DNA of 36,130 nucleotides, from positions 1 through 36,130 of IMG/VR virus record IMGVR_UViG_3300006028_000022; one strand, given 5' to 3'. Numbering within the stretch: the first letter of the stretch is position 1; every line of letters starts with the position of its first letter. This DNA is from a virus. The notes below the pieces were generated by a model. It was not told the origin of the DNA, ran no database searches, and saw only the letters and a list, made by a program, of their open reading frames with translations. The translations under genes and the position numbers were made by a program. Positions 7,001 through 30,403 of the stretch are shown here, piece after piece.

Positions 7001-8177
7001 ATGGCTATTACAAGCGTATCAGTATTGCCCCCAGCAGTACGTGATTATTATGATCGCCTTCTTTTGATGACAGCATACCCAACGCTAATTCACACAAAAT
7101 TTGCGCAAAGAAGAATGCTGCCACGAAAGATGGGTGATACAGTTGTTATGAGACGATATAACCGTCTTGCAACAGTACCAGTGCCTATTGTTGATGGTAT
7201 TACCCCCCCAGGTACACAACTATCAGCAACAGACATCAAAGCACGCGTAGATTTCTACGGTAACTTTGTGACTATTACAAACCAAGTTGAATTAACTGTC
7301 GAGGATAGAGTTCTTAACGAAGCTGCTCGCTTACTTGCACAAAACCTAGGTCAAACTATGGATGAAGTGACTCGTGATGTTCTAGCTTCTACAAGCTCAG
7401 TTCTACAATGTTCACATGGAAATAATGGAAATACGCCCACTCAGCTCACCTATGATGATATTTCAGCTGCGGTGACGACTTTACTTGGCAACGATGCTGA
7501 GATGATTTCTGAAGTAATTACAGCAGGTCCTAACTTTAGTACTACTGCAATTCGCCCAGCATTCTGGGGCTTCATTGATACAGCTCTGTTAACTGATCTT
7601 GAGAACGTTGGAGACATGTTTGTGCCTACTTCTCAATATGCAAGTCAACAGACAGTTTTGGAATCAGAGTTAACTACAAAGACCCGAGCTCTGAATAAAT
7701 TTTCTCTGATTGACTTGGAAGCCCGACAGGGTGACAAGGCGCAAGCTGAAGCAGAAATGCTTCTTGCAGCGTGAACGACTGAGTGAGAAAACACCGAAAG
7801 GTGAAGCGACAGTCTGATCACGACGCATAAATAAAGGTCGTGAAGAATCTCCGAAGAGGGATTCTCGGTCAGTAACGCAAGTTATTGATTAGTAACAACA
7901 TGGGGGCGCAACTGGCAACGTAAGATGGCTTTACACTAGTGTGGGAAGCGTATCTAATGCAAATCCTCAAGTCTTCAATAATTTTATTGTTGGCAAGGAA
8001 GCATACGGGGTCGTACATTTGGGAGCCGAAACAGGCGACTTCTACATTAAGCCATTGGGTTCAGCAGGTTCTGCCGATCCTTTGGATCAACGTGGCACGG
8101 TCGGCTGGCAGCACCCCTTTGTGGCCAGAATTTTGAACGATGCGTTTATGCTAAATCTCGAAGCCACAGCAGCTTAA
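7001..8177 (+). CDS. Major capsid protein, N4-gp56 family, split by a group I intron
   Basis: The coding sequence is 7001-7670 joined to 7903-8177, giving exactly 315 codons and 314 residues. Exon 1 covers the N-terminal part (RDYYDRLLLMTAYPTLIH, then YGNFVTITNQVELTVEDRV), typical of the N4-gp56 capsid family. Exon 2 supplies the conserved C-terminal part (NVRWLYTS, VGKEAYGVVHLG, then DPLDQRGTVGW and ILNDAFMLNLEA). The join rebuilds the codon TGG (Trp) in SEWGATGNVRW. Without splicing, exon 1 would run 34 residues into the intron and stop at 7772-7774, losing the C-terminal third. This is the building block of the head shell; it is preceded by the scaffold and followed by structural genes. 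Confidence 0.95.
7671..7902 (+). ncRNA. Self-splicing group I intron without an endonuclease gene
   Basis: 232 bases inside the major capsid gene. P1: exon CAGAGT (7665-7670) pairs with the guide GCTCTG (7688-7693), with the required T-G wobble at the splice site. P3: TTTTCTC (7700-7706) with GAGAAAA (7785-7791). P6/6a: GCAAG/CTTGC and AAGCA/TGCTT closed by GAAA (7741-7767). P7: GACT (7777-7780) with AGTC (7811-7814), in contexts like the classical R and S boxes. P8: CACC-GAAA-GGTG (7792-7803). P9: TCACGAC/GTCGTGA (7818-7843). P9.1: AGAATC/GATTCT (7844-7865). The intron ends in G (7902). CCC at 7683-7685 can form P10 with GGG of exon 2. Confidence 0.95.
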
Positions 8178-8186
8178 GGAGCTATT

Positions 8187-8777
8187 ATGTCACAAATGAA
8201 AAATCTAAGCTGGACTAGTACCGGTGCAGATAAACAACTAGATGTTGGTTTTACAGTAAACCAAATTACGGTCACAAATTCCACAGCTGGAGGCCAATTT
8301 TATTGGAACTCAAGCATGCTTTCTGGATCGTTTATACGTGTAGATACTGGTGCATATACTTCGACAACTGGATTTACTCCACTTGCTCAAAGTGCTGTGT
8401 TCGGTGCTACTGTATCAGGTTTTACTGATGCAACACCTGGTGTAATCACTGCTACAGGCATTGCTCAAGTTGGCATTGTAGCTGGCGATACCATCAAGGT
8501 CGCAGAAATTGCAGATAGCGGCACAGGTACTTCGTCTTTAAATGGGACTTATACCGTTGCCTCAGTAACTGCAACCACAATCACACTGGTTGAAGCTACT
8601 ACAGGCTTTGCTACGTATGTATCAGGTGGAAAAGTTACACGAGTAAAAGACTCAAGTAATGTACCAATTGCAACAGAAAACTTTGCAATTATCGGCATGA
8701 CATTGGGTTCTGGAGTTCGTGGATCAAATAACGACGTACTTACAGCCGTTGTGCTTGGTTCAAACTCAGTAACGTAA
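8187..8777 (+). CDS. Probable capsid-associated or decoration protein
   Basis: 196 residues rich in Thr, Ser, Gly, Val and Ala with alternating beta-strand character throughout. The central part (TATGIAQVGIVAGDTIKVAE, then LNGTYTVASVTATTITLVEA) resembles the small beta-sandwich modules often found inserted in phage structural proteins. It follows the capsid gene with only a short gap and a GGAG ribosome binding site, and it is closed by the terminator at 8784. A head decoration or head-fibre role is inferred from position and fold type; no specific family was recognised. Confidence 0.7.
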   Translation: MSQMKNLSWTSTGADKQLDVGFTVNQITVTNSTAGGQFYWNSSMLSGSFIRVDTGAYTSTTGFTPLAQSAVFGATVSGFTDATPGVITATGIAQVGIVAGDTIKVAEIADSGTGTSSLNGTYTVASVTATTITLVEATTGFATYVSGGKVTRVKDSSNVPIATENFAIIGMTLGSGVRGSNNDVLTAVVLGSNSVT

Positions 8778-8783
8778 AAAAGT

Positions 8784-8808
8784 GGGGGGAATTGTCCCCC
8801 CTTTATTT
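8784..8808 (+). terminator. Rho-independent terminator after the capsid operon
   Basis: GGGGGG (8784-8789) pairs with CCCCCC (8796-8801) around AATTGT, followed by TTTATTT. This six-GC stem with a T-rich tail is a strong intrinsic terminator. It probably lowers transcription of the tail genes relative to the capsid gene. Confidence 0.85.
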
Positions 8809-8821
8809 CTAGAGGAAAAAC

Positions 8822-9154
8822 ATGGCAATTAGACACAAATTTGGTGCAGTAAAAGAAAAAACCAAACCTATTAGTGAAGCAGAACAACAATGGCTCGATG
8901 AAGAAATTGAAGTAGAATTTTACAACATTGAAGAGCCAGGTGTCATAAATAAGTTCTCATATGGCAGTACAAAGGACTATACCGACTATGCATTAGTTCA
9001 CGGTGGGAAATATAAATTACCTAGAAAGGTTATCAAACACATTGAAACAAGACAGACGCCGCTATGGACATATGAACCTGATGGACACGGTAAAATGGCT
9101 AAAAAACAGACTGGTTGGAAGCCGCGTTTTCAATGTAGACAAGTATTCGCTTAA
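8822..9154 (+). CDS. Hypothetical structural-region protein
   Basis: 110 residues with an AGAGGAA ribosome binding site. The N-terminus is charged and helical (KPISEAEQQWLDEEIEVEF). A middle region with aromatic residues follows (NKFSYGSTKDYTDYALVHGG), then a basic C-terminus (KMAKKQTGWKPRFQCRQ). It lies between the capsid terminator and the head-tail adaptor gene. No family was recognised; a head-completion role is possible from position only. Confidence 0.7.
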   Translation: MAIRHKFGAVKEKTKPISEAEQQWLDEEIEVEFYNIEEPGVINKFSYGSTKDYTDYALVHGGKYKLPRKVIKHIETRQTPLWTYEPDGHGKMAKKQTGWKPRFQCRQVFA

Positions 9155-28509: not shown

Positions 28510-29373
28510 TTACTCTACATTTTTAAGGCGCCAATACGAAATCGGAGTTTTACGGAACATCTCAAGATCAACCTTTTTAAGCTCAGGGATACTTGAGTAA
28601 TCTATGGTACCCTTGCGCATATACTTTGATATCTGCATGCCATTACATACGGCATTTGTTAAATTGTTCGATTCGCACATTTCTACTATTATTTTTTTAA
28701 GTTCTGCTTCGCGCTTAGTTAAATTGGTTATGTTATCCATAACACTTTTAAGCTCGGCAGTTGCTTTAGTTATTTCTACGTCATTTATTGAGACATAATC
28801 TTTAGTAGTCATTTTTGGCGCAACAAAATCTTGCATGCAAACGAAGAATTTTTTCTCTTCAGCTATCATTTCCGTAATAAACTTATCGTCTCTACCTACC
28901 TCTACAATCACACCATCTCCGTGATAGTAAGAAAAATAATAGGCCATATCAAGGCCGGTTACTTCCAATTGGTGCTGTAATTGAGGGAAATATTTCTCAG
29001 GTATCTTGCCGTTACACGCTACTTCGTGATCTTTAGCTCCTGGATTCTTAATCTCTACGATATGCTTACCTTCTTCATCTATACCATCTAGGCTAGCCAT
29101 CATCCAGTCAAAGTGCTCGTGAAAGCAAACTTTCGGAAAAACATTCAATCTAGTTTTATCCATAAAGTTTTGGCGAGCTTCTTGCTCTTTGTCTAGGCCT
29201 TCTTGCATGGCACGCGTAACCACATTATCGTTTGTTATGCCTACCTTTTCCGACCATAGTTCATATGGCGTTTTCCACGGGCTTACATTCATGATAACAG
29301 GGGCATCTGAGGCCCCTATCTTTTTCTTTCGAAGCTCTAGCCAAGCCTCTGTATTTTGTGTTAGCAATTGCAT
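28510..29373 (-). CDS. YqaJ-family (lambda exonuclease-like) recombination nuclease
   Basis: 287 residues. The N-terminus (TEAWLELRKKKIGASDAPVI) has the GASD motif of the YqaJ/lambda Exo fold. The metal-binding residues are seen in ASLDGID (Asp96) and VEIKNPG (Glu107 and Lys109). Residues 125-170 (PEKYFPQLQHQLEVTGLD) contain the usual Q-x-Q helix. A C-terminal coiled coil and tail make it longer than lambda Exo (226). It would degrade one strand of double-stranded ends to expose 3' single strands for the Bet protein encoded just upstream. All expected active-site residues are present. Confidence 0.93.
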   Translation of the reverse strand: MQLLTQNTEAWLELRKKKIGASDAPVIMNVSPWKTPYELWSEKVGITNDNVVTRAMQEGLDKEQEARQNFMDKTRLNVFPKVCFHEHFDWMMASLDGIDEEGKHIVEIKNPGAKDHEVACNGKIPEKYFPQLQHQLEVTGLDMAYYFSYYHGDGVIVEVGRDDKFITEMIAEEKKFFVCMQDFVAPKMTTKDYVSINDVEITKATAELKSVMDNITNLTKREAELKKIIVEMCESNNLTNAVCNGMQISKYMRKGTIDYSSIPELKKVDLEMFRKTPISYWRLKNVE

Positions 29374-29555
29374 TTGTGACTCTCCACAAGTTCAAGCAGT
29401 TTTAATCTGCGTTCAAGATATTTAGTTTTTTCTGTTTGTTTAGATAGCTCATGGGACAATATTTTTATTATTAGATCGTTAGAGTTATCACCGAGCATCT
29501 CTAGATGCTCGGAGTATTTTTCCATTATATTAGTTAAATGTTCGGATTTTATCAC
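29361..29555 (-). CDS. Small coiled-coil protein between bet and the exonuclease gene
   Basis: 64 residues overlapping both neighbours (4 bases with bet, 13 bases with the exonuclease gene). The sequence is a single long amphipathic helix (MEKYSEHLEMLGDNSNDL, then KQTEKTKYLERRLKLLELVE), ending CNC. The tight overlap places it in the recombination operon. It could be a partner or inhibitor of the pair, but nothing in the sequence tells which. Confidence 0.65.
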   Translation of the reverse strand: MIKSEHLTNIMEKYSEHLEMLGDNSNDLIIKILSHELSKQTEKTKYLERRLKLLELVESHKCNC

Positions 29556-30403
29556 GCTTCGTTTACCTCATAAAAATCTTCCACTTCTTCAAATTCTGGC
29601 GTGTCTTGGTATTTCTTTTTATTTTCCATAGCTCTTTCAAGGGCTAGTTTGTACATGCGCTTAGGCACATCTTGTACATTGTACACAGGAGGCTTACAAA
29701 GTTTAAGACCATCCATCACACGCTTTACATACTCAGGATCGCAATCATTTAGGACCGATTGTAAATCATTCGCTTCTTCTAGCGTAATTTTTTCCACAAT
29801 TTTTTCATCCTTTTTTTCTGGCGCATCTTGATGACATGCCATATCTGATACTTCAGCTTGCGCCATTTCTTCTTGCGTGTATATTCCCGATAGATCACCT
29901 GGAAAAGCTTTCCTAAGTGCAAGAGCCTCAGCACATTTAGCAAGTTGGTTATGGCCCATCTTTAGCCAAAACTGATTTGGAGTACCTTCTTTAGTTCGTT
30001 GAACATACTCATCAAAAAATGCAGTAGCTGCAATTTCATGCCAAGTACCATCAGCTGTTTGCTTTTTTACATAGGCAGTTGCAGACATTATCTTTCCGTT
30101 CTCGTATTGGTAGCTAGGTTCGCGCCCAGGAGCATAACGGCCTGTGCGCTCTGCTATTAGTCTATAACCATCAATACCAGTTTGTACGGTCATTGTGTTC
30201 TTTTTGAGCGTACTATCCCAGCGCTTAACCGGAAAGATCTGGCGCAATGCTGGATCTAAGCCGGTCTTTTTGCATACATGCACGAACATCAGAAATTCTT
30301 GGTCTGATGAGCCCTTAAAATACATGTCTTTTATCAATTCAACATGTGACGGTGAAAATGGTGCACTTGTTATTTGCTCTTGTTTCTTTTGTACTAGTTG
30401 CAT
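29552..30403 (-). CDS. bet: Phage recombination protein Bet (Redbeta/RecT family)
   Basis: 283 residues, close to lambda Bet (261). The annealing-domain sequence is well conserved: FSPSHVELIKDMYFKGSSDQ, LFVHVCKKTGLDP-type segment (EFLMFVHVCKKTGLDPALRQ), QIFPVKRWD, and TVQTGIDGYRLIAERTGRYA. It is followed by FWLKMGHNQLAKCAEALALR. It binds single-stranded DNA and anneals complementary strands, working with the 5'-3' exonuclease encoded 180 bases downstream. The C-terminal 90 residues are acidic and less conserved, the part that in lambda contacts the exonuclease. Adjacent genes overlap it, so they are co-expressed. Confidence 0.95.
   Translation of the reverse strand: MQLVQKKQEQITSAPFSPSHVELIKDMYFKGSSDQEFLMFVHVCKKTGLDPALRQIFPVKRWDSTLKKNTMTVQTGIDGYRLIAERTGRYAPGREPSYQYENGKIMSATAYVKKQTADGTWHEIAATAFFDEYVQRTKEGTPNQFWLKMGHNQLAKCAEALALRKAFPGDLSGIYTQEEMAQAEVSDMACHQDAPEKKDEKIVEKITLEEANDLQSVLNDCDPEYVKRVMDGLKLCKPPVYNVQDVPKRMYKLALERAMENKKKYQDTPEFEEVEDFYEVNEA

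Follow-up and report, generated by a model that had tools for sequence, protein, structure and literature searches.

Positions 7001-7774 of the virus record IMGVR_UViG_3300006028_000022, whose 36,130 nucleotides are called the window here, form an open reading frame of 257 aa that a TGA codon at 7772-7774 closes, exactly where a preliminary description of this DNA had placed the end of the capsid frame. This raises the question what interrupts the gene, and what would become of a protein made from the interrupted message. The preliminary description proposed a group I intron lacking an ORF, and excision of precisely 7671-7902 (232 nt) does join 7001-7670 to 7903-8177 in a frame of 945 nt for a major capsid protein of 314 aa. 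Our analysis supports its interpretation as a whole, and suggests, with a probability of roughly 0.7 and without RNA or protein data, that the insert represents a mobile family of minimal group I introns endowed with a fail-safe degron on the unspliced product.

Results

A group I intron in the major capsid gene

The capsid product of the window matches the profiles phrog_1357 (E=1.4e-35) and PF25209 (E=5e-9). Comparison with intronless homologous capsid genes, a check proposed in the preliminary description, upheld the junction. It is crossed without interruption by more than 70 capsid genes from IMG/VR (72-95% identity), most of 80 close relatives in a set collected by capsid similarity are unbroken at the insertion point, and the joined flanks of the window align at the nucleotide level without gaps to contigs L001, L002, L003 and L419. 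The empty sites fix G7902 as the end of the intron, and their exactness rules out a pseudogene or a frameshift.

The insert meets the criterion of a conserved P3-P4-P6-P7-P8 core with interleaved P3 and P7. The elements drawn beforehand from the sequence, P1 with its wobble, P3, P6/6a, P7, P8 with its GAAA loop, two hairpins after P7 and the terminal G, are all present, as are P4 and P5 (Table 1). P1 comprises six Watson-Crick pairs and a U.G pair at the splice site, a pattern repeated at other capsid sites; as a test against chance it is weak, and it was not relied on alone because at single sites 3-21% of shuffles produce a P1 of equal length. Folded as a whole, the stretch is stabler than its shuffles (z -3.57). 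Introns of subgroup IA, the main phage subgroup, possess the extra helices P7.1/P7.2 near P3, P7 and P8. These are absent from the window, since the segments 7777-7781, 7785-7791, 7792-7803 and 7810-7814 lie only 0-6 nt apart and leave no space for them.

Table 1. Features of the interrupted capsid gene and its intron (positions in the window).
Feature	Position	Strand	Basis
Major capsid protein exon 1	7001..7670	+	phrog_1357, PF25209, capsid relatives
Read-through ORF of the unspliced RNA, 257 aa, tail ...KFSLIDLEARQGDKAQAEAEMLLAA before the stop	7001..7774	+	ORF list, tail analysis
P1 5' strand UCAGAGU, final U = 5' splice site	7664..7670	+	pairing analysis
ORF-less group I intron, 232 nt	7671..7902	+	empty sites, model R1 (105.5 bits), covariation
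CCC, candidate P10 partner of 3' exon GGG (7903-7905)	7683..7685	+	inferred from sequence
Internal guide sequence GCUCUGA, P1 3' strand	7688..7694	+	pairing analysis
P3 5' strand, partner 7785-7791	7700..7706	+	7/7 pairs changed on both sides across the family
P4 (7714-7717/7735-7738), P5 (7721-7724/7729-7732)	7714..7738	+	family structure comparison
P6 (7739-7742/7769-7772), P6a (7745-7746/7766-7767)	7739..7772	+	5/6 pairs changed on both sides
SsrA-like C-terminus LLAA and TGA stop, overlapping P6 3' strand	7760..7774	+	sequence, tail statistics
P7 5' strand, partner 7810-7814, guanosine-binding helix	7777..7781	+	last pair GC/AU/UA covaries
P8 with GAAA loop	7792..7803	+	4/4 pairs changed on both sides
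P9 hairpin	7818..7843	+	fold
P9.1 hairpin	7844..7865	+	fold
Terminal intron G	7902..7902	+	sequence; same at other capsid insertions
Major capsid protein exon 2, end ...EATAA before the stop	7903..8177	+	relatives, sequence

One check advocated in the preliminary description fails as it was worded: the Rfam group I model RF00028 gave no match to the window even at E<=5, and Rfam scans of 11 relatives returned no intron match. This result is not decisive. It constitutes a weak test because the introns of T4 td (40.3 bits), T4 nrdB (35.7 bits), Tuc2009 (43.2 bits) and SPO1 (25.6 bits) also fall under the cut-off of 50 bits, a criterion of detection and not of structure; T4 nrdD reaches 105 bits. 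A recent phage survey could find only introns similar to known models (PMC11878797).

Support comes instead from covariation and from model R1. Over 30 diverse members, 96.8% of the cells in the P3/P4/P5/P6/P7/P8 structure are paired and double changes occur in 20 of the 30 pairs, against an average of 15.6 double-changed pairs in shuffles and 39-49% paired cells in slid structures. Since the search pattern had fixed most of P7 in this comparison, the weight of the covariation falls on P3, P5, P6, P8 and the one P7 pair left variable. With model R1, the window, which was part of the training set, scores 105.5 bits, and two annotated phage records outside that set score 102-109 bits. Across 92 kb, R1 has no weaker matches other than true intron cores, those of Twort (E=0.057) and T4 nrdD (E=0.35), on the correct strand; the Tuc2009 introns gave no match to R1. 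Empty sites and covarying core together confirm that a group I intron interrupts the capsid gene, and we are nearly certain that 7671-7902 is this intron, its splicing being inferred in the absence of RNA data.

Related introns and their spread

Related introns are present in at least hundreds of phage contigs and interrupt the same capsid gene at many positions, either without an ORF or with LAGLIDADG or GIY-YIG genes. Scans of viral contigs with core patterns recovered at least 104-120 stretches each, and the scan of bacterial and archaeal assemblies recovered 25, not all of them real. L202, L204, L207, L222 and others were rejected as family introns, being chance pattern matches without the P4 motif. 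In the sample drawn by capsid similarity, 5 of 80 loci contain a family intron, each in the capsid gene. Gaps of 120-2500 nt occur in 157 of 283 capsid genes, on contigs mostly fetched by intron patterns, and cluster near residues 87/88, 96, 102-104, 143, 201, 223-231, 255 and 291.

Inserts of 205-222 nt in the close capsid relatives L002, L008 and L058 lie elsewhere in the same capsid gene (residues 291 and 255) and share the core of the window, a U before the insert and a G at its end; their guide sequences are complementary to their own exons. In the close relative L419, the capsid gene (7109-9000) has exons 88-97% identical to those of the window; it lacks the window's intron and is interrupted by two other family introns, one of which carries a LAGLIDADG-like ORF on the opposite strand (7448-8011, minus). 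L111, L137, L141, L151, L275 and L510 each contain several family introns, which often lie in the same capsid gene and are separated by short exons. Family introns usually end in GTAACA...ATG or TTG/GTG, which places a start-like codon at the 3' splice site.

The family also reaches major head proteins of other families, the tape-measure protein and the anaerobic ribonucleotide reductase. That annotation would treat such genes as truncated was anticipated, and it holds in GenBank, where the split genes of MW202674 and OR420741 are listed as separate ORFs. In MW202674.1 (L228, 2692-4207), a P22-like coat gene appears as two ORFs plus a hypothetical protein, with a family intron between them, and the shortened coat ORF ends in ...DAYFLLAA at its stop. 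In OR420741.1 (Roseobacter phage CRP-118; L227, 2005-4078), an unannotated family intron splits ribonucleotide reductase into gp44 and gp45; here the stop directly follows the exon (...FGTNP), without a degron.

Relatives encode an endonuclease within the intron, and the window's does not; with 232 nt there is no space for one, in line with the earlier view of a minimal intron without a homing endonuclease. None was found among the scanned window proteins either, a scan that left out some ORFs. The suggestion that the intron moves in trans or is a fixed relic survives only partly: an isolated relic is not what we see, as the family is large, includes members with LAGLIDADG/GIY-YIG genes, and is polymorphic among close relatives. 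Structure, boundaries and family are matters of observation, and membership of the insert in a mobile family of minimal group I introns is the best reading of them. Elsewhere in the window, a serine recombinase gene (PF00239; 24587-25285, minus strand) and RecE/RecT-like genes (28510-30403, minus strand) suggest a temperate or recombination-proficient phage.

Read-through products of the unspliced introns

Reading the 5' exon of the window into its intron yields a product that ends in ...EMLLAA, and other introns yield ...ANDESFALVA or ...LELLAA, the usual outcome being an end that resembles the SsrA degradation tag; the expressed frame of the window accordingly has a hydrophobic-A-A C-terminus (LLAA). 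Among the matches listed, 455 intron matches included 261 with a clear upstream coding frame; 226 of these had their stop inside the intron region, and 128 remained after similar ones had been removed, a filter that reduces shared descent without removing it. The exon frames of most of the 128 were called by open reading length, not by homology. For controls, each of these introns was read in its two remaining frames (n=256).

Read-through ends in AA in 57 of 128 introns versus 3 of 256 control frames (p=3e-28), and 80 of 128 have Ala as their final residue, versus 17 of 256. The use of the same introns for the controls rules out a composition or frame-blind effect. A general property of phage group I introns is likewise ruled out, as the read-through ends of ten classic introns from T4, Twort, Tuc2009 and S-PM2 are AA in none and A in one. 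In about 38% of the introns the read-through product does not end in Ala; insertions in ribonucleotide reductase often stop directly (...TNP), and others end in IH or FS. The spliced capsid also ends in TAA, and an AA end is found in 4.5% of long ORFs at these loci.

Sorted by the position of the stop, [AV]A ends are found at P1/P2 (21/59 versus 3/118 controls), at P3-P6 (28/42 versus 0/84) and at P7 (19/22 versus 0/44), and only the P7 class could be forced by the ribozyme sequence. In the P1/P2 and P3-P6 classes each of the four GCN codons occurs at the last position, followed by TAA, TAG or TGA as the stop; third codon positions vary, and selection therefore appears to act on the read-through peptide. 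Of the frames that enter the core, 68 of 70 are the LIDLE frame, the only one to escape two stops inherent in P3/P4. Both the choice of frame and the enrichment of the tails are thereby demonstrated statistically. The premature stop, previously taken as a mere sign of interruption, is real, but it looks like the end of a selected, in-frame SsrA-like C-terminus.

The SsrA (tmRNA) tag shares with the intron tails a C-terminal xAA, and several tails match A-N-x-x-x-F-A-L-[AVT]-A. Five possess the extended form (VANDSSFALVA, NANDESFALVA, SANSDLFALAA, GANEEQFALAA and AANSAFFALTA), compared with 0 of 256 controls; full SsrA-like tags occur in several capsid genes (ANDESFALVA, ANEEQFALAA, ANSDLFALAA), and a Burkholderiales genome bin that contains a family intron has the tmRNA tag ANDERFALAA. 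Unlike the SsrA tag, the intron tail is encoded in cis by the unspliced intron and not added by trans-translation, and no stalled ribosome is needed. SsrA tags are recognised by ClpXP or similar proteases (PMC8138137). In our interpretation the intron tail works like an SsrA-type degron without being one, degradation by ClpXP or a similar protease being inferred. A search of the open-access literature brought up no relevant account of an intron with an SsrA-like tag. Reviews on group I introns report that in-frame stops keep ribosomes out of them, and the portions available to us make no mention of a degron (PMC3073962, PMC3984707).

Discussion

These findings lend themselves to the following model. 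The insert would remove itself from the capsid mRNA via the usual guanosine pathway, for which the structure is present and splicing is inferred, and its mobile family would enter many sites, the guide sequence being fitted at each of them to the new 5' exon. If splicing fails or is slow, some ribosomes may pass from exon 1 into the intron; that unspliced mRNA is read by ribosomes is itself inferred. Their frame would avoid the early stops of the core, so that the truncated protein receives an SsrA-like C-terminus (LLAA in this case). This tail probably routes a truncated, potentially assembly-poisoning protein to ClpXP-type proteases, and the same RNA segment would then be both ribozyme helix and degron code. 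That the tail does function as a degron, proteolysis being inferred, we consider probable, if slightly less so than the model in general, and we hold with equal confidence a fail-safe in which some members copy the extended host tmRNA tag.

Could an ordinary ORF-less group I intron, mobile or relic, acquire AA ends simply as by-products of its ribozyme sequence (P6, conserved UGAACGACU) and of shared descent? We consider this unlikely, while granting that GCA-GCG/GCC-TGA at the R-element stop is partly dictated by P6 and P7, and that group I introns generally have an in-frame stop near the 5' junction (PMC3073962, PMC3984707). However, the enrichment is equally strong at stops that the core leaves unconstrained, those in P1/P2 or the P5 loop; there is free variation at third codon positions and in the stop codon used, and a single frame prevails in 68 of 70 cases. 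It is improbable, to a clearly greater degree, that the late in-frame stop regulates splicing, with ribosomes guided across P1-P6 and stopped at P7, which would couple splicing to translation, and with the terminal residues serving termination, not stability. The window's stop is indeed unusually deep (7772-7774), and group I splicing in T4 needs upstream translation, and ribosome entry disturbs folding (PMC3073962, citing Sandegren and Sjoberg, Semrad and Schroeder), yet the same peptide end recurs despite stops at three places (P1/P2, P5, P7), and some tails fit the extended SsrA motif beyond the last residues. The absence of any intron, by assembly error, frameshift or decay of the capsid gene, can be dismissed despite the negative RF00028 result and the lack of transcript data, given an insertion exact against empty sites, two intact exons, compensatory base changes, and the recurrence of sister inserts, which are found in independent contigs as well as in sequenced phage records and in bacterial assemblies.

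Known phage introns resemble the proposed fail-safe family in part. The introns in the capsid genes of Lactococcus phage Tuc2009 and mycobacteriophage LittleE and the 265-bp ORF-less tail-gene intron of BAKA are group I introns in structural genes with a U before the 5' splice site and a G at the intron end, and splicing has been demonstrated for LittleE and BAKA (PMC3706429); in contrast to the window, the LittleE intron has 820 nt and an endonuclease gene, and the portion of that paper available to us describes no degron-like tail. The Tuc2009 intron differs in its tested read-through end (...IFNL) and in lacking an R1 match. The T4 td/nrdB/nrdD and Twort introns share the P3-P8 core with P7, and R1 reaches Twort and T4 nrdD at their true cores, but they are a separate lineage with tested read-through ends that are never AA, and those of T4 are longer and contain endonuclease genes. 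Collaborative homing of an ORF-less intron by a free-standing endonuclease (PMC3984707) is comparable in that the intron has no ORF, occupies a conserved site and may be mobile in trans; it differs in that no endonuclease appeared among the scanned window proteins and that relatives such as L419 bear LAGLIDADG genes within the intron.

If true, the fail-safe model would explain how introns persist in phage genes that are highly expressed and critical for assembly when transcription and translation are coupled: the harmful truncated product would be cleared by a tag written into the ribozyme, and one stretch of RNA would be under dual selection for catalytic structure and peptide code. Capsid, tape-measure and reductase genes look truncated in databases because standard models and annotation miss this widespread intron family.
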